Virus record (IMG/VR): IMGVR_UViG_3300027963_000404
Coordinates: 1 to 20,341 of that record
Strand: one strand, 5' to 3'
Source: a virus
Length of the DNA: 20,341 bases
Shown here: one piece after another, positions 6,377 through 20,341 of the stretch
Layout: each line of letters opens with the position of its first letter
Numbering within the stretch: the first letter of the stretch is position 1
Translations under genes and position numbers: made by a program
Notes under the pieces: model-generated
What the model was told of the DNA's origin: nothing
Seen by the model: only the letters and a program-made list of their open reading frames with translations
Database searches by the model: none

Positions 6377-6693
6377 GAGATTGTTACGCGGGCTTCAATT
6401 AGCCGGATGTCCCAGCCGTCGGGCCGCTGGACGTTAATGGTTAGCAGCGCCCCGAACTGTGCGGAGAATGCCGCCGTCTGCGCGTTGGTTAGCCGCACTG
6501 CCACCGTCTCAGGCGTTGGCCGTACGATGCTCGGGGTCGTCAGCGATGCACCGGCAGCAGTCTTGAGTGTCACCGCGACGAACCACGCGGACAGGTCAGT
6601 GTATTGACTGCACGGGCCATCTTCCTGCAGGGAAAAGGAAAAGTCCCAGTCCGTCCCGCGCTGGATTGTGGATGATGTTTGGACGGCGACCAT
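6373..6693 (-). CDS. Putative tail-tip / fibre-attachment structural protein, 106 aa
   Basis: The frame extends back to 6792, but that extension is Arg-rich and overlaps the Cys-rich gene. The ATG at 6693, 20 bases after that gene's stop, gives a compact protein. Near its N-terminus is IQRGTDWDFSFSL, followed by D-L-S-A-W and alternating beta-like segments (FVAVTLKT, VAVRLTN, LLTINVQRPDGW) ending in RVTIS. An R-G-D-x-x-x-F-x-F start followed by beta strands recalls N-terminal domains of phage baseplate and fibre-anchoring proteins, though I cannot name a family. It is coupled to the collagen-like gene by an ATGA overlap, so the two may act together. Confidence 0.6.
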   Translation of the reverse strand: MVAVQTSSTIQRGTDWDFSFSLQEDGPCSQYTDLSAWFVAVTLKTAAGASLTTPSIVRPTPETVAVRLTNAQTAAFSAQFGALLTINVQRPDGWDIRLIEARVTIS

Positions 6694-6712
6694 GTCTACA
6701 AAGAAGGGGTTT

Positions 6713-6928
6713 TCACAAGTAATTCCGTGCAGAGTCGCAGCAACCGGACACTGGCTGCGCCCCCTCGGGCCACGCCTTGGCCGCGATCTCATTAGCTAGG
6801 CTTGACAACAGTTTCAGAGGACAAGCTGGAGCCTCAGACAGGATGGCGTATTTAGCCACGCAGCAAGCGTGCTGGTCACATGCTATGCAGATTTGTAGCC
6901 TTTTGTCCACTATCCAGCGCGGGATCAT
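6713..6928 (-). CDS. Cys-rich small protein, probable metal-binding, 71 aa
   Basis: The start is fixed by an ATGA overlap with the preceding 197-aa gene. Within 71 residues there are eight cysteines: C14-x-x-C17, C22-C23, C36 and a C-terminal pair at 63-64. The ICIACDQHACCVAKYAIL segment, followed by ACPLKLLSSL, looks like a small zinc-ribbon-like fold. The C-terminal half is helical and Ala/Glu-rich. Small Cys-rich proteins of this type occur among phage tail-tip genes, but I cannot assign a named family. A structural zinc protein or an assembly factor is more likely than an enzyme. Confidence 0.6.
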   Translation of the reverse strand: MIPRWIVDKRLQICIACDQHACCVAKYAILSEAPACPLKLLSSLANEIAAKAWPEGAQPVSGCCDSARNYL

Positions 6929-13805: not shown

Positions 13806-13817
13806 GGGATAATCGGT

Positions 13818-13856
13818 AAAAAGCCGGAGCCCCCCAGTTATAGGGAGCCCCGGCTC
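13818..13856 (-). terminator. Intrinsic terminator after major capsid gene
   Basis: On the minus strand AGCCGGGGCTCCC pairs over 13 positions (two G-U) with GGGGGCTCCGGCT across an 8-base loop, followed by TTTTT. It lies 14 bases after the capsid stop and 12 bases before the next ATG. The reverse orientation has only a weak CTTTG tract, so it points to minus-strand transcripts. Confidence 0.82.
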
Positions 13857-13870
13857 TTTGGAGGGGATCG

Positions 13871-14752
13871 TTAGGGAGTGACGATGCGGACGCCCATGCC
13901 GGTTCCTTTTGCAACGCCCCATATACAACCCACATGGATGCACGTCTGGCCTAATTCACGATTATAGTAGGCCCGAAAAGTTAGGGGAAGCCCAAGGTCA
14001 GGGACAACAACTTCGGCAATTTCAATGGAATCCTGCAACGCGGCTTCAGGATTTACACGGCGCGCAGCCATGATGAGCGCGGAGGAATGAAGTGCAAACC
14101 CGGCAAGTGCTTCGCCATTGGCATCGCAAAGGTCAGACTCATAGATATCAAAGCCCGAAACACGCGGAACAGTGCCATCAGCCTTAAAAGGCGTGATGCC
14201 AGGAATTTCCGCGCTGATAAACGTCTTGGAAATCGCGCCGTAATAAGCGGGATTCATGATGACCGAGCGGCCCATCTTGGGAGCCTTCAGCGTCTGCGTC
14301 AGCGTCACGCCAAGGTCAATCACGTCGCTGCGGTCAAAGTTGGCAGCGCTTGAGGAAAGAGGAGTCTGCGCAAAGTTCGCAGCGGTCACCAAATTCCAGA
14401 GCTGTCCAAACATGTCAGCGCCCAGCGCCTGGATCATCGGCGCCAGAAACAAGTTGCGGAAGTTGATCGAAGACTGAAGGACTTGAATATCTGTAAATCC
14501 AAGAGTCACGCCGCGATGCTGGTCAAGCGAGATCGTGCGGGCAGTCGTATCGCCAGCGACAGGAGCGTAACCTTCGGTCGTGATGTCGACAACGGAAGGC
14601 ACCGTTGCGAAACGAGTCGTCACCGAACTGCCAGCGGATGCAATGTCCGTGGAGAAGTCAGTGGTAATGCCACGCAAAGGAGCGAAAGCATTGGTGAGGA
14701 AGCTCAGTGAATTTTGAGCAATCTGTGCGAGGAAAACGCCATTAAGGGCCAT
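13871..14752 (-). CDS. Major capsid protein, 293 aa
   Basis: The protein has the look of an HK97-fold coat protein: N-terminal helix (GVFLAQIAQNSLSFLTNAFAPL), a segment rich in T and V (SSVTTRFATVPSVVDITTEG, about 42-61), a central strand-helix region (RTISLDQHRGVTLGFTDIQV), a long helix near 100-130 and a C-terminal beta segment (LPLTFRAYYNRELGQTCIHVG). The layout resembles P22-type coat proteins more than lambda gpE, though I could not compare them directly. It follows the putative scaffold, as expected, and is followed by a strong hairpin. The leader is A/C-rich with no Shine-Dalgarno, odd for what should be the most abundant protein. A major structural role is well supported; the subfamily is not. 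Confidence 0.85.
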   Translation of the reverse strand: MALNGVFLAQIAQNSLSFLTNAFAPLRGITTDFSTDIASAGSSVTTRFATVPSVVDITTEGYAPVAGDTTARTISLDQHRGVTLGFTDIQVLQSSINFRNLFLAPMIQALGADMFGQLWNLVTAANFAQTPLSSSAANFDRSDVIDLGVTLTQTLKAPKMGRSVIMNPAYYGAISKTFISAEIPGITPFKADGTVPRVSGFDIYESDLCDANGEALAGFALHSSALIMAARRVNPEAALQDSIEIAEVVVPDLGLPLTFRAYYNRELGQTCIHVGCIWGVAKGTGMGVRIVTP

Positions 14753-14773
14753 ATGATTTTAGATGTGTGAGGG

Positions 14774-15178
14774 TTAGAGCTGCATTGCTTTCTGGTTTGC
14801 GGCGAAAAACTCATTTCGCTCAACAAATCCCAGAGTTGCGTAGTGCGCCCAGAGCTGTTCTCTGGTTTTAGGCGCAGAAAGTTGTTCGGGCTGAATGGCA
14901 ACGGGAGCCACGCCCAGATTGGCGACAATGGCGTTGGCCTTTGCGGAAGCGTCAGCCTCGGATGCTTTCATCGCGTCGAGTGCTGCGGCCAGATCCAGAT
15001 TGTTTGCGTTGGCAAGTTCCAGTGCTGCGGACAATTCCACAGTGCGGGACTTGAGAGCGTCAAAAGTCGCCACCAGTGCGGTGTGCTCGGCACTGAGTGC
15101 GTTAAGCGCGGCCACGTCTGCCTGCGCGGCAGAGAGCGCGGCCAGCGCATCGGTGAGGGTGTTAGGCAGATGATCCAT
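14774..15178 (-). CDS. Putative scaffolding protein, coiled-coil, 134 aa
   Basis: Residues 1-90 are a nearly uninterrupted Ala/Leu-rich helix (with NTLTDALAALSAAQADVAAL and later LELANANNLDLAAALDAM), strongly suggesting a coiled coil. A Pro-containing linker (VAPVAIQPEQLSAP) leads to a short C-terminal helix-turn-helix-like segment (KTREQLWAHYATLGFVERNE). Scaffolds are typically helical proteins encoded directly upstream of the major capsid gene, with a C-terminal domain binding the coat; both fit here. In lambda the scaffold Nu3 is nested in the protease gene, whereas this is a separate gene after a terminator-like hairpin. The ATG has a weak AGG close upstream. A minor capsid role cannot be excluded. 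Confidence 0.65.
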   Translation of the reverse strand: MDHLPNTLTDALAALSAAQADVAALNALSAEHTALVATFDALKSRTVELSAALELANANNLDLAAALDAMKASEADASAKANAIVANLGVAPVAIQPEQLSAPKTREQLWAHYATLGFVERNEFFAANQKAMQL

Positions 15179-15201
15179 CTACCTAACTGGATTTCCACAA
15201 C

Positions 15202-15236
15202 AAAAAGCCCGCCGGAGAAACCAAACTCCGGCGGGC
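15202..15236 (-). terminator. Intrinsic terminator between protease and scaffold genes
   Basis: A perfect 11-bp stem, GCCCGCCGGAG with CTCCGGCGGGC (15207-15217 and 15226-15236), has an 8-base loop and is followed on the minus strand by TTTTT. It is 23 bases after the protease stop and 23 bases before the scaffold ATG. It is the strongest hairpin in the window. Confidence 0.9.
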
Positions 15237-15259
15237 AAGAGACAAATGAACCTAATCCA

Positions 15260-16075
15260 CTACATGCCCACCATACCAAGCAGGGCTTGATATGCAAGCT
15301 CTTCCGTGCCAATGTCGTCAATCAGGTTGCCTAGCTTTGCACGCGGCGCTAGGTAGGCGGCTCCGGTCATGTACTCGTCGGCCACGCGCCGGTTGCGGAG
15401 CACGTTGCTCTTGAACTGGTCAAAAGAATCGTCAACGAGCTGCTGCAAACTAGCGCGCTGGGCGGGACTGAGAGACGGCCCCATGCCAGCGCCTTTGAGC
15501 GGCCCGCTGGTGATGGGTTCCCAGCTTAGTCCCTGCGCTTCGTAGGCTGCGGACTGGTCCAGCCACGGTATGATTGTGCCAATGGAGCCCCAGGTTGATC
15601 CCACGGATCCGATGATCCTGTCGCAACTGACGGCGATATTGTACGCGGCAGAGCAGGCCGTGTCGTTGCTGTAGGCCACGATTGGAACCTTGAGCGCCTG
15701 GATGAGATCAACCACTTCGGAACAGCCAGTGCAGTTGCCCCCCGGGGAATTGATCTCCAACATGATCCCACGGACGTTGGCCTCTACAGCCTCCTCAATG
15801 TCCTCAGAGATCCATTCGTAATCCCAAGCGCCGCAGCACGCTTCCAGAGCGGAAATCCCCTTGGCAAGAGTGCCGTCAATACAGATGTGCGCGATCCCCT
15901 GCCCGTCGATCTCCATCTCCTCCCGCTTGTTCATCATGCCGGACAGCTTTTCGTAGTCGTCTCCGTTAGCGCGGACCAGTCGGCCCTCCACTAGTTGCCG
16001 GACTGCTGCGTAGCCGCCGGGAGTGATGAGCCACGGGCGGTAAAAAACTTGTTCAATAACGCGCTGGAATTTCAT
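15260..16075 (-). CDS. Head maturation protease, S49/SppA-type, 271 aa
   Basis: The catalytic core is clear: NSPGG at residues 109-113 (oxyanion region), the nucleophile Ser142 in DTACSAAYNIA, the G-S-V-G-S-T-W-G-S-I-G-T strand (156-167) and a probable catalytic Lys194 in GPLKGAG, matching the Ser-Lys dyad of S49 peptidases and the lambda gpC protease. It should process the prohead, cutting scaffold and other capsid components before DNA packaging. Unlike lambda gpC there is no fused scaffold domain; the scaffold candidate is a separate downstream gene. The ATG overlaps the portal TGA (ATGA), implying coupled translation. The enzyme class is firm. Confidence 0.9.
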   Translation of the reverse strand: MKFQRVIEQVFYRPWLITPGGYAAVRQLVEGRLVRANGDDYEKLSGMMNKREEMEIDGQGIAHICIDGTLAKGISALEACCGAWDYEWISEDIEEAVEANVRGIMLEINSPGGNCTGCSEVVDLIQALKVPIVAYSNDTACSAAYNIAVSCDRIIGSVGSTWGSIGTIIPWLDQSAAYEAQGLSWEPITSGPLKGAGMGPSLSPAQRASLQQLVDDSFDQFKSNVLRNRRVADEYMTGAAYLAPRAKLGNLIDDIGTEELAYQALLGMVGM

Positions 16076-17574
16076 TCTGTGGGGGCAGTTGTCGGCGGAT
16101 TGCCGTTGGGTGTCAAAAGTCCAAACACGTCACGCGAAAGCCCAGATCGTTCGACGCGCTTTTTGATTTCCAACTCTTCGCGTTCGACCTCGTCGAGGTG
16201 CTCTTCGAGCGTTTTGGACCCCGACGCCAAAATGTCGGTCATGCTGCGCATCCCGGCGCGGTAGGCCTCGATAGCGTCGCGGCTGGCGTACCCCGAGTCA
16301 GCGGTCAGCCTAGCGGGCTCCGTAAAACGGAACTGGTAAGCGCCACCGCGGGAGGCGTCTGCGCCTGTGTAGGGAGGCAGCATTCCCATCTCCACGAACT
16401 TGGCAATCGCGTACGCGCACCGGCGTTTGCAAAATGCGGCTAGGTAAGCATGCCGCTCGGAAGTAATGCGGTTGACCTGTTCCAGCACGATGCGGGCAGA
16501 GGCTCCCCCAAGCTTGCTCATGTCCCATCCGAACTCAGGCGGCCACTGAGCGGCCAGCAGTGCGTTGCGAATGAGTCGCTCTTGTAGGCGGTCCTGCGCC
16601 TCGGTCGGGATCTTGGCGTCAATTTGATTAATGGACTCGCCAGCGTTGGCCGTCAGATACTCGATGCGCCCGCCCTGCATTGGCGTGTACCGGAGTCCCG
16701 GCCCGCACTGCGGCATGTTTGTCTCTGTCAGTGCGTTGTAGGCGTCAGAGGCGTCGGCCATCCCTTGTTGGTTGGTTACCAGCAGCCCAATTTTAGCAGC
16801 CATTCTGGAAGCGGCTTGGATGTCGTCGCCAAGATCCTTGAGCGAAATTAGGTCGCGGATGGCGGGTGCAAACGCCGAGATCCCGCGCACCTGGTCCACC
16901 TCACGCGGGTCCATTGTCAGCATGCACGCCTGGGCGGGGATGTCGCGATCATCTGCGCCACTCTGGTCTTCGCCAAGAACACGGTAGGCCACTGCACGGT
17001 TGGCTTTGGAAAGAATGACGCCGTTGTAAATTCGCAGCCCGGCATAGCGTCCAGTAGTCAACGGCCCTTCGTCACCACGGCTTCCAATCTGGTGCCACGG
17101 CACCTGTTGCAATTGCGGATACCCACTTGCGGCGGTGGTAAGAATCGTCAGAAGATCGCCTTCACGATCAATGGCGGTGGACTCCAGCCGCAGCCCTTCC
17201 CACCAGCTTTTCCCATCGAGGTAGCAAATTTGGAACCAGTCCAGAAGCATGGCCTCAGCCTGTTTGCCCCACTCGCGGTCTGCGCCGGTAAAGATCGGAC
17301 GCATTGCCATCCCCACGGACAGCATGGATTTCTGGTCAATGGCGGCATTCACCATCCCGTTATTCCAATACAATTTCCTAGCTGCCGAATTGACTGTGCG
17401 CCATTCGCCAACGGTCAATTCCTTGGAGATGCTCTGAGTGTGGTTCCTCCACCAAGGTTCTCCCCAAACGCCGCCCTCCACTAGCCGTTGGCGACGATAT
17501 GCGCCGCTGTTGTTGGCTCCCACTTTGGGCGTGCCCACACCCATGAGGTTCTTAATTTTGTCTAGGAAACTCAT
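16072..17574 (-). CDS. Portal protein, lambda gpB type, 500 aa
   Basis: The start overlaps the gpW-like stop as ATGA. Features of lambda-type portals include the early W-R-T-V-N-S-A-A-R-K-L-Y-W-N-N segment (about 58-72), IDREGDLLTIL, V-P-W-H-Q-I near 158-163, GISAFAPAIRDLISLKDLGD, and the C-terminal wing with PPEFGWDMSKLGGASARIVL followed by a helix-rich arm. Twelve copies form the ring at one capsid vertex through which terminase pumps DNA. Length (about 500 aa) is usual for the family. The C-terminus is Pro/Thr-rich and ends APTE. Order gpW-portal-protease is exactly that of lambda. Confidence 0.9.
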   Translation of the reverse strand: MSFLDKIKNLMGVGTPKVGANNSGAYRRQRLVEGGVWGEPWWRNHTQSISKELTVGEWRTVNSAARKLYWNNGMVNAAIDQKSMLSVGMAMRPIFTGADREWGKQAEAMLLDWFQICYLDGKSWWEGLRLESTAIDREGDLLTILTTAASGYPQLQQVPWHQIGSRGDEGPLTTGRYAGLRIYNGVILSKANRAVAYRVLGEDQSGADDRDIPAQACMLTMDPREVDQVRGISAFAPAIRDLISLKDLGDDIQAASRMAAKIGLLVTNQQGMADASDAYNALTETNMPQCGPGLRYTPMQGGRIEYLTANAGESINQIDAKIPTEAQDRLQERLIRNALLAAQWPPEFGWDMSKLGGASARIVLEQVNRITSERHAYLAAFCKRRCAYAIAKFVEMGMLPPYTGADASRGGAYQFRFTEPARLTADSGYASRDAIEAYRAGMRSMTDILASGSKTLEEHLDEVEREELEIKKRVERSGLSRDVFGLLTPNGNPPTTAPTE

Positions 17575-17837
17575 ATAAAGTAAGCCTGAGTGCGGCGCAC
17601 TGGCCCATTAATGCCTGCGGCTTTGTAATTTAAGGCCTGCTGCGCCAGCATGACAACGTCCAGCGGGCTGAGTGTACCGCCCACGTTAAACTGGAACGCA
17701 GCACCGTCAATGGAGCTGGAAACCAGCGAACTCTTCCCAGCCAGCACCAAATCAAACTTGCTGGCGACGATGGCACGAAGCTCCGCCACGTCCCGCGTCA
17801 GGAACACTTGGAGCAGGAGTCTTGTATCGGGAGCCAT
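17571..17837 (-). CDS. gpW-like head-tail joining protein, 88 aa
   Basis: A small, partly helical protein lies between large terminase and portal, the position of W in lambda. The N-terminal half is helical (TRLLLQVFLTRDVAELRAIV), followed by a short strand region (SSSIDGAAFQFNVGG) and a helix (LDVVMLAQQALNYK), then a basic end. gpW-family proteins are about 60-90 aa, enter the head after packaging and are needed for head completion. The call is mainly by synteny, helped by size and helix-strand-helix layout. The start is 23 bases after the U-tract of a terminator-like hairpin. The ATG is preceded by an in-frame TAG, which fixes the start. Confidence 0.7.
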   Translation of the reverse strand: MAPDTRLLLQVFLTRDVAELRAIVASKFDLVLAGKSSLVSSSIDGAAFQFNVGGTLSPLDVVMLAQQALNYKAAGINGPVRRTQAYFI

Positions 17838-17860
17838 CTACATAAGGGCGCTTTCACAAG

Positions 17861-17892
17861 AAAACCCGGACACCGTCACACGACGGGCCGGG
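17861..17892 (-). terminator. Intrinsic terminator-like hairpin after large terminase
   Basis: On the minus strand CCCGG-C-CCGTC pairs with GACGG-TGT-CCGGG around a 4-base loop (GTGT), giving two 5-bp stems split by a small internal loop, followed by TTTTCTT. It lies 62 bases after the terminase stop and 23 bases before the gpW-like start. The internal loop makes it weaker than the other two. The rest of the 117-base gap between the two genes holds no reading frame of note. Confidence 0.7.
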
Positions 17893-17954
17893 CAATTTTC
17901 TGACAACTACCAGTCGCTTCCTGAGCTATCTCGGGTTGGTGTTGAGCTGGCACT

Positions 17955-19733
17955 CTACTCTGTCGGCGCTGGCTCGTCAACCTCTGGTGCGGTGCTTGCC
18001 ATATCCGGCAGAATGCCAAGGATCTGCGCTGTCAGCACGTTCATCGCTTCGGCATCCCACATGTGGTTGGCTCGCCCTGTTGCGGTCCAACGAAGTCGCG
18101 TTTTCTTTGTTCGTTTGTCTACAGTTGCCCGTTTACGCTCGCTGTTGAGGTGCCGCACGTATTCCGGGGGCGCGTCTTGTGGAAATTCCCACACTGGAGA
18201 ACCAGTATTTCGCAGATTTGCGAGAATGTCTTTAATTGGATCGGACGCCCAGTAAAAGAATGTGACAAACACTCGCTTGCCATGCTGGTCCTTGTAAGTT
18301 GGCGCAACTACGCGGTCGGGTGCCGAGTAATACCGCCGCACGGGCTTACCATCTGGCCCACGCACCGTGAATTGATCCTCTGCGCGCCCGATAAGCGCAG
18401 TCCACCCGTAACGTGCGCAGGTGTCATAAATCCGCCCGTGAAACGAATTGCCCGCATCCAACAGCGTCCGCTTTTCGGGCACCTTGAGCCTAGTCTGAAT
18501 CTCGCGGAGCTGGTCGACGGTCAGGATCTTGCCAGCCCATAAAAGCCGAGAGTGCCCATTCTTGAGCCACACCCGCACAATCCCCCAGTAGTGATCTTGC
18601 TGACAATCCACTGTAAACACTCTGGCGGCCTCGTCTGGCATTGAGCGCCCGTCCTGCCACTCATTTACAAAATATTCAGAGGCTTCAAGTTCAAGCGCGG
18701 GAAGCTCCTCCTCCTGTTTCCACGGTTCCGCGAGCCGTTGCATTCTGAAATCCTTGGTAGGTTGCAGCACCCCAAGATGCCGGGCGTCGGAAGCCTGGCA
18801 CCACTGGATGACAAGGTCAGCCCATCTGATCCAGTAAACAGACTGAGCCGATACACGCCGTGATCGGTAGCCTTCCACATGGTCATTCCCCTCGGTCCTC
18901 CACTCGCTGCGTTGAGTCAGTGCTCGCCTAGCTGCCGTCGTGTCTGGTGTCACATGCCCACAGTGCGGGCACTCATGCCGGACGGTCTTTACCAGCGCGC
19001 CCCAGTTCCATTCCCCGTTCTCATTCTTTGCCTCGTCGTACTTGATGTCCACCCAAGCGGGTTTGACCCATTCCTCACAACCGGGGCACCGATGGCACCA
19101 CTGAAACTCTTCGCCAGAGCGCCATTCCTCGGTGAGTTGGTGAGGCTCTTCAAAGCTCTGGGAAGTCAGGAGCGCGTAACCGTTCCAACGGTCGTGAAGC
19201 CTTTTTTTGAACTGAGTAATGAGATCCGAATACTGCCAGCACTCATCCAAAAAAAGCACCTGCACGGACTTTTCTTGCGCGTTGGAGGTGTTAGCGCCGC
19301 CGAGCATTAAGGGCATGTGCGCAAAATAGATGCCGTCCTTCTTGGTATGATGGCGGTTTGTCGGCATCAATCCCCGCAGCGGTTCGCAAGCGTTAAGCAC
19401 CGGCAGGAGCCTGGTCGCCATCCACTCGGCAGAGGTCGCGTCGGTCTGAGTAATTGACAGCATCGGCCCTGGTTGCTGCGCCACTGCCCAGCACACTAGC
19501 GCCTCCAGTGCCGTGCTCTTACCTGCGCCAGTGCATGCTTGGACAAAAGTCTGTCGGCAAGTTGGGTCCGCAAAGTCATGAAAAACCGCATTCCACCATG
19601 GTGCTGTATGCCTGTCAAAGTGCGTCGATCGGGAGCTGTGCGGAAAGCGGACGTTGGCTTCGAGCCAGTCCAACGGATCGCCGGTGTAGGCGAGGCGGAT
19701 GCCGATGCATGAGCCGTCAGCGATTGGGTTCAC
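17955..19733 (-). CDS. terL: Terminase large subunit, GpA type, 592 aa
   Basis: This is the packaging motor and nuclease. The ATPase domain has a classical Walker A (ACTGAGKST, residues 66-74) and Walker B (VLFLDE, 159-164), with an S-I-T-Q-T motif between. Two CxxC pairs, C216/C219 in HRCPGCEEW and C255/C258 in HECPHCGH, form a zinc ribbon as in many GpA-type terminases. The C-terminal nuclease half has acidic positions in FTVDCQQDHYW, LLDAGNSFHGRIYD and MWDAEAM. It starts with GTG inside a GTGA overlap with the small subunit; no earlier ATG is possible and the next Met lies beyond Walker A. The match to the lambda gpA family is by motif and gene order. Confidence 0.93.
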   Translation of the reverse strand: MNPIADGSCIGIRLAYTGDPLDWLEANVRFPHSSRSTHFDRHTAPWWNAVFHDFADPTCRQTFVQACTGAGKSTALEALVCWAVAQQPGPMLSITQTDATSAEWMATRLLPVLNACEPLRGLMPTNRHHTKKDGIYFAHMPLMLGGANTSNAQEKSVQVLFLDECWQYSDLITQFKKRLHDRWNGYALLTSQSFEEPHQLTEEWRSGEEFQWCHRCPGCEEWVKPAWVDIKYDEAKNENGEWNWGALVKTVRHECPHCGHVTPDTTAARRALTQRSEWRTEGNDHVEGYRSRRVSAQSVYWIRWADLVIQWCQASDARHLGVLQPTKDFRMQRLAEPWKQEEELPALELEASEYFVNEWQDGRSMPDEAARVFTVDCQQDHYWGIVRVWLKNGHSRLLWAGKILTVDQLREIQTRLKVPEKRTLLDAGNSFHGRIYDTCARYGWTALIGRAEDQFTVRGPDGKPVRRYYSAPDRVVAPTYKDQHGKRVFVTFFYWASDPIKDILANLRNTGSPVWEFPQDAPPEYVRHLNSERKRATVDKRTKKTRLRWTATGRANHMWDAEAMNVLTAQILGILPDMASTAPEVDEPAPTE

Positions 19734-20230: not shown

Positions 20231-20239
20231 GCCCTAGTA

Positions 20240-20287
20240 GTAGACTAGGCAATATCTACCGGTCAATACTCTACCGGCCAAGTCTAC
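20240..20287. promoter_or_regulatory. Inverted and direct repeats upstream of small terminase
   Basis: Arms GTAGACTAGG (20240-20249) and CCAAGTCTAC (20278-20287) form an inverted repeat with 9 of 10 bases paired. Between them lie two direct repeats, CAATATCTACCGG (20250-20262) and CAATACTCTACCGG (20264-20277), differing by one base inserted in the second copy. The site is 10 bases from the small-terminase start. Plausible roles are a terminase-binding (cos-like) site or an operator for the late operon. Confidence 0.55.
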
Positions 20288-20314: not shown

Positions 20315-20341
20315 AAAAGGAGCAGGCGTCCCTGAACTCAC

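Follow-up and report, generated by a model that had tools for sequence, protein, structure and literature searches.

The window analysed here is the whole of the IMG/VR virus record IMGVR_UViG_3300027963_000404 (positions 1-20,341; 20,341 bases). Its minus strand carries a lambda-type head module followed by tail genes, and at three joints between these genes lie the terminator-like hairpins that are our subject, together with the promoters and a short repeated element of 9 nucleotides (nt) that accompany two of them. Read along the minus strand, the genes concerned are:

20230-19730, minus strand: terS
19733-17955, minus strand: terL, encoding the GpA ATPase
17837-17571, minus strand: connector-like protein of 88 amino acids
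17574-16072, minus strand: portal
16075-15260, minus strand: S49 head protease
15178-14774, minus strand: protein of 134 amino acids in the scaffold position
14752-13871, minus strand: major capsid protein
13805-13587, minus strand: g7, after which the tail genes follow

We denote the joint between terL and the connector gene as J1, that between protease and scaffold as J2, that between major capsid and g7 as J3, and a further one before a tail gene as J4. About 130 related loci were recovered from viral contigs with the capsid and terL proteins as queries; these are partial metagenomic contigs and belong to a large family of uncultured tailed phages. In the related loci J1, J2 and J3 are the long gaps (medians 111, 82 and 69 nt) of a tight operon in which most other joints overlap and the scaffold-capsid gap is 21 nt. 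A distant clade, whose terL is about 41% identical, has gaps of only 12-37 nt at J1 and J2. A host search with terL and a portal alignment yielded no relative among 84,980 genomes, and the nearest phage records are about 23% identical, the best of them being P8625, with a Puniceicoccales host. No tRNA genes were found in the contigs scanned, and none of the genes read stood out as a phage RNA polymerase.

The hairpins at the three joints are as follows:

17861..17893, minus strand: predicted J1 leader terminator, hairpin and U-tract (bulged stem, -19.6 kcal/mol, TTTT; conserved UGU bulge and G[U/A]GU loop)
15202..15236, minus strand: predicted J2 leader terminator, hairpin and U-tract (11-bp stem, -25.4 kcal/mol, TTTTT)
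13818..13857, minus strand: predicted J3 terminator after the major capsid gene, hairpin and U-tract (-30.3 kcal/mol, TTTTT; accompanied by neither a promoter nor the 9-nt element)

A preliminary description of this DNA had pointed to these three minus-strand hairpins after terL, protease and capsid, and they are real. Each combines the GC-rich hairpin, the immediate U-tract and the position after a stop codon that characterize intrinsic terminators, with the U-tract ending 23 nt (J1), 23 nt (J2) and 12 nt (J3) before the next ATG. Under a single definition (a closed hairpin of at most 39 nt, then at least 5 T in 8) they are the only sites on the window's coding strand that reach -16 kcal/mol, the opposite strand holding one hairpin of -16.1 kcal/mol; in 30 dinucleotide shuffles the chance expectation was 0.5 at -16, 0.13 at -19 (against the three seen) and 0 at -25 kcal/mol. 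A generic consensus scan for promoters and terminators was too lax to be informative, returning 24 terminator-like sites against 23 expected, and the covariance models of Rfam gave no match in the window at E up to 1.

The preliminary description had suggested examining whether relatives keep hairpins at the same joints; they do so in about 70 distinct relatives, with changing stems. At a threshold of -12 kcal/mol or better, and counting distinct sequences, a hairpin is present in 68 of 72 at J1, 51 of 56 at J2 and all 56 at J3, and every J1 or J2 sequence devoid of one comes from the distant clade. The outer stem, G[U/A]GU loop and UGU bulge of J1 are kept in 54 of 68 relatives, and its inner stem takes 13 different forms, all of them complementary, which indicates compensatory change; this type of hairpin was located at J1 only in a search of 1.3 megabases. 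As the loop lengths of J2 differ between relatives and thereby defeat RNAalifold on alignments, the hairpins were parsed singly; on MAFFT alignments RNAalifold reported 4 of 9 pairs co-varying at J3. A strong J3 hairpin of unrelated sequence also occurs in phages with another capsid gene (49% identical). The U-tract is poor in many J3 relatives and in two J1/J2 relatives. In two loci (L065:3815-3904 and L132:3229-3325) the bulged J1 hairpin is kept, with its outer stem compensated, in the absence of both the U-tract and the 9-nt element, and the J1 hairpin may thus do more than terminate transcription. The 5' leader that precedes the J1 terminator (leader at 17894-17945, minus strand) shows a conserved stretch starting GGCTCAACC and varying local stems; the J1 leader is possibly a structured leader or a small RNA of about 85 nt.

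Two candidate promoters lie inside the genes that precede J1 and J2:

17952..17980, minus strand: P-J1, TTGACG-N17-TAGAGT, in the terL 3' end, its -10 overlapping the terL stop codon
15270..15297, minus strand: P-J2, TTGCAT-N16-TATGGT, in the protease 3' end

The pattern TTGAC-N17-TA[AG]NNT of P-J1 recurs in 67 of 68 distinct relatives, the sixth base being T in 63, and TTGCNT-N16-TATGNT of P-J2 recurs in all 66. Such pairs were found only at J1 and J2 among the seven gene-end types scanned, none being present at J3 (with either capsid type) or at the scaffold-capsid, portal-protease, connector-portal and g8-g9 ends. The decisive evidence comes from silent sites, the third base being compared in columns of four- and six-fold degenerate amino acids. 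In terL (72 distinct genes) a single column out of 302 has an invariant third base, and it is the T of TTGAC; the codon is always GTT, though GTT makes up only 20% of valine codons. In the protease the invariant columns number 2 out of 131, one being the T in TTGC and the other the T in TATG, which stays the same across glycine, alanine, arginine and serine codons. The distant clade, which lacks the J1 and J2 hairpins, likewise lacks both promoters. By these comparisons P-J1 and P-J2 are predicted to be conserved sigma70-like promoters inside the upstream genes, with a leader of 25-60 nt between promoter and hairpin. In one relative (L005) the joint after terL has a 239-nt gap, terL being truncated by an insertion of about 130 nt that holds another hairpin; the displaced promoter, TTGACG-N17-TAGATT, has come to lie in non-coding DNA but survives intact.

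Accordingly, the contention of the preliminary description that there is no room for promoters after the hairpins holds, but predicted promoters do lie before two of them; its alternative that downstream genes are served by promoters inside upstream genes is borne out at J1 and J2. Unlike J3, the hairpins of J1 and J2 are better described as putative leader terminators of internal promoters than as ends of the upstream units. J3 itself is predicted to be a plain terminator after the capsid gene; it resembles Tphi of phage T7, the terminator after capsid gene 10, in being a hairpin and U-tract directly after a capsid gene, and differs in that a host-type polymerase is assumed here. As P-J2 would feed scaffold and capsid and J3 would close that unit, the puzzle raised earlier, of a gradient that lowers capsid dosage against need, dissolves.

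Just past the U-tracts of J1 and J2 stands the 9-nt element, of which there is a third copy at J4:

17851..17859, minus strand: J1 copy, TTGTGAAAG, starting 22 nt before the ATG at 17837
15192..15200, minus strand: J2 copy, TTGTGGAAA, starting 22 nt before the ATG at 15178
6710..6718, minus strand: J4 copy, TTGTGAAAA, starting 25 nt before the ATG at 6693, with no hairpin

The element is of type TTGTCCCGA in most relatives, the others having TTGTGAAA (the type of the window), TTATAAAA, TTGCTC or rarer forms. Within a genome the copies vary in concert: those of J1 and J2 agree at positions -20, -19 and -18 in 49 of 52 genomes, compared with 37, 37 and 22 after shuffling. The switch of type is independent of the hairpin, since the same J1 hairpin is found with different elements, J2 again matching. 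At J4 the copy belongs to the same type or a similar one and is found 23-25 nt ahead of a gene with which the tail-fibre region begins. An exact motif search of the full contigs examined found three sites per genome before a long reading frame, and one possible extra in a single genome (G004). By sequence, J1 and J2 are hence two copies of one putative cassette: a promoter is followed by a leader of 25-60 nt and a terminator, and the 9-nt element then begins exactly 22 nt ahead of the ATG. Readings of the element as a mini open reading frame, as an antisense target or as a sigma70 -35 box with its -10 inside the gene were dropped on inspection by eye, and its being bound to a hairpin is ruled out by J4, which has none. 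The lowest silent-site variation of the scaffold gene is seen in its first codons (about 15140-15178, minus strand), right after J2, and the J2 signal may therefore reach into this gene.

A comparison of gene content in 23 contigs yielded a candidate for the protein that reads the element. Its gene directly precedes the cohesive-end (cos) region and terS, and the product, about 112 residues long, varies with the type of element: the peptides in its C-terminal helix-turn-helix pair as GVS[RH]QA with TTGTCC, GVSHAA with TTGCTC, GCSQPA with TTATAA, GCTQQA with TTGTGA and GVTQQT with TTGTGT. Genomes with TTGTCC have the same helix residues in protein backgrounds that are only about half identical. 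All 26 distinct cases have the recognition-helix peptide that goes with their element, 25 of them in strict position and one with the element shifted by two bases. A screen for genes that vary in step with the type of element picked out a highly variable tail gene as well, for which some types are represented by two sequences; we prefer the helix-turn-helix gene because one of its three separating columns lies in the recognition helix. For L065, an incomplete contig, a helix-turn-helix homologue was looked for in the available part and not found. The AlphaFold model of the protein is all-helical (predicted local distance difference test score, pLDDT, 84; predicted template modelling score, pTM, 0.59), and the structures that match it best, if weakly (Z 6.0), are domains of sigma region 4, of the kind that recognises the -35 element. 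These observations suggest that the protein most likely binds the 9-nt element.

Starting from the hairpins, promoters, fixed spacing, concerted variation and recognition-helix co-variation that comparison of sequences establishes, we infer binding, termination and a direction of regulation, and propose, with a probability of about 0.55, that the J1 and J2 hairpins terminate the leaders of module promoters and that a late regulator, similar in action to a Q-type antiterminator though not necessarily one, controls them. A host-type promoter in the 3' end of terL or the protease gene would initiate transcription, and 25-60 nt downstream the RNA would fold into an intrinsic terminator, past whose U-tract the 9-bp site would lie 22 bp ahead of the start codon of the next module. 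The small helix-turn-helix phage protein, whose gene closes the early region beside cos and terS, would most likely bind this site. In its absence P-J1 and P-J2 would give mainly short RNAs, of about 85 and 60 nt, and in its presence entry into the connector-protease and scaffold-capsid modules would be altered, most likely raised, by late antitermination or activation. J3 would be the ordinary terminator closing the scaffold-capsid unit, presumably leaky enough for the tail genes.

The nearest known arrangement is that of lambdoid late antitermination (pR'-tR' with Q of lambda, 21 and 82; AlpA of Pseudomonas aeruginosa), in which an intrinsic terminator shortly after a promoter holds the operon silent and a small protein with a C-terminal helix-turn-helix lets the polymerase through; at J1 and J2 the sequence likewise has a promoter with a predicted intrinsic terminator shortly downstream. 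The Q gene of lambda lies at the end of the early region, as does the helix-turn-helix gene here. The ArpU, RinA and Ltr late regulators of Gram-positive phages, too, are small and encoded just upstream of the terminase genes, but show no detectable sequence similarity to the protein described here and serve one promoter rather than several internal sites. It is because of this gene position and the pairing of promoter with terminator that we place a positive late regulator first. 21Q, which has a sigma-region-4-like helix-turn-helix, binds a direct repeat of six bases located between -35 and -10 and forms a plug in the RNA exit channel; AlpA acts likewise on a downstream intrinsic terminator, and in both proteins the helix-turn-helix is C-terminal (PMC6606751, PMC9371919).

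Several observations weigh against this proposal. The 9-nt site lies downstream of the terminator, whereas the sites of Q and AlpA lie between -35 and -10; at J1 and J2 no element was found in that interval, the promoter spacers being variable coding sequence. A protein bound past the terminator could equally block the polymerase, and at J4 the site has no recognised promoter or hairpin. None of 20,000 permutations matched the sorting of helix with element, but permutations ignore relatedness, and in a systematic search other variable genes also had type-separating columns; since related genomes are not independent and such other genes exist, the association of helix and element is strong but correlative. 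The weak match of the fold to sigma region 4 is shared with NarL/FixJ and KorA domains close behind, the protein fits no family in Pfam, PHROG or NCBIfam and by sequence family matches neither Q nor any other regulator, and the window's own copy of its gene falls outside the window, which ends at the probable cos. The preliminary description had listed an antiterminator among its options. This option is live, given that a helix-turn-helix protein co-varies with a site after two of the terminators, but because the putative site lies after the terminator we do not file the system as one of the Q type, from which it further departs in that the cassette is repeated inside the head genes and no sequence relation to Q was found.

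A bound protein past the terminator would also fit a repressor that blocks the elongating polymerase at J1, J2 and J4, with the leader terminators adding to the block and the late modules being released on its loss. Its model would be the L5 stoperators of cluster A mycobacteriophages, which stand in one orientation and whose motifs correlate with repressor distances (PMC6550527). The short asymmetric sites at gene borders, their single orientation, the genome-specific variants that apparently follow the putative binding protein, the location past the terminator and the promoterless site at J4 all agree with such a roadblock. Against it, the motif search gave three sites per genome instead of the 20-30, and up to about 30, of stoperators, the exact 22-nt spacing to the ATG at J1 and J2 is unexpected, and two of the three sites are coupled to a promoter and terminator; we regard it as doubtful, though deserving serious consideration. 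That exact distance, the J3 hairpin with neither promoter nor element, and the hairpins that L065 and L132 retain in the absence of U-tract and element would instead suit ordinary terminators or 3'-end stabilisers of independent units, with promoters that read through their own terminator and an element that is a translation or mRNA-leader signal. This appears unlikely, as it leaves unexplained both a strong terminator 25-60 nt past a strictly conserved promoter and the variation of the element in concert with the recognition helix.

The TTG that begins most element types, the fold resembling sigma region 4 and the T[AG]TAAT found at the J4 start codon in many genomes raise the prospect that the element is -35-like and the protein a sigma-like factor starting transcription at the head of each module. 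Such an explanation is improbable, given that the usual spacing would put the RNA start inside the coding sequence, past the ATG, and that the spacing to -10-like bases is only 13. The suggestion of the preliminary description that the hairpins could act as recombination joints finds no support where the capsid gene was exchanged and is very improbable, even if they do stand between functional blocks and nearly identical J1 leaders occur in genomes only about 80% identical. A second capsid type (49% identical) is present in 16 loci whose terL, portal, protease, scaffold, g8 and g9 stay close to those of the window, g7 being no longer detectable and J3 different. Capsid, J3 and the next gene were thus swapped together while scaffold and g8/g9 were not, so that J3 lies inside the swapped block, which ends elsewhere, and the two capsid types have hairpins with no sequence relation to each other.

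Returning to the proposed late regulator, we more tentatively suggest, at odds somewhat below even, that a single sigma-region-4-like protein gates several late modules from sites between leader terminator and start codon, its specificity having changed several times in step with all the sites. To our knowledge, control of leader terminators from such sites is not known for systems of the Q, N or put type. If correct, a compact phage would have used terminators as gates and one regulator for several modules, dosing portal, capsid and tail genes separately, with no spare space, from promoters in the last codons of the preceding gene. The five natural protein-site pairs would lend themselves readily to studies of late-gene control and of how DNA is recognised, and mapping of the promoters would reveal the kind of promoter that the host reads.

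The remaining features of the head region are:

13808..13816, minus strand: conserved J3 leader CCGANTATC before g7
20327..20341, minus strand: probable left cohesive end (cos) of the virion genome, GTGAGTTCAGGGACG
20237..20266, minus strand: candidate terS promoter, TTGACC-N18-TACTAC, with the palindrome GGNANATATTGCC in its spacer

The J3 leader CCGANTATC is retained even where capsid and g7 are replaced by the other type. Related contigs begin and/or end with a 15-nt sequence of the type GTGAGGTCAAGGACG or a variant of it, after which comes the conserved GTGCAATCGGCAAAAA; such ends are seen in the independent contigs L138/L139 (G003), L140/L141 (G004), L154/L155 (G011) and L156/L157 (G012). 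The right edge of the window is an end of this kind and hence probably represents the left cohesive end of the DNA in the virion, and 15-nt cohesive ends are probably situated between the helix-turn-helix gene and terS. The sequence of the cos overhang differs between phages. The candidate terS promoter, read from the sequence, is similar in relatives, and the GGNANATATTGCC palindrome in its spacer looks like an operator for another regulator.

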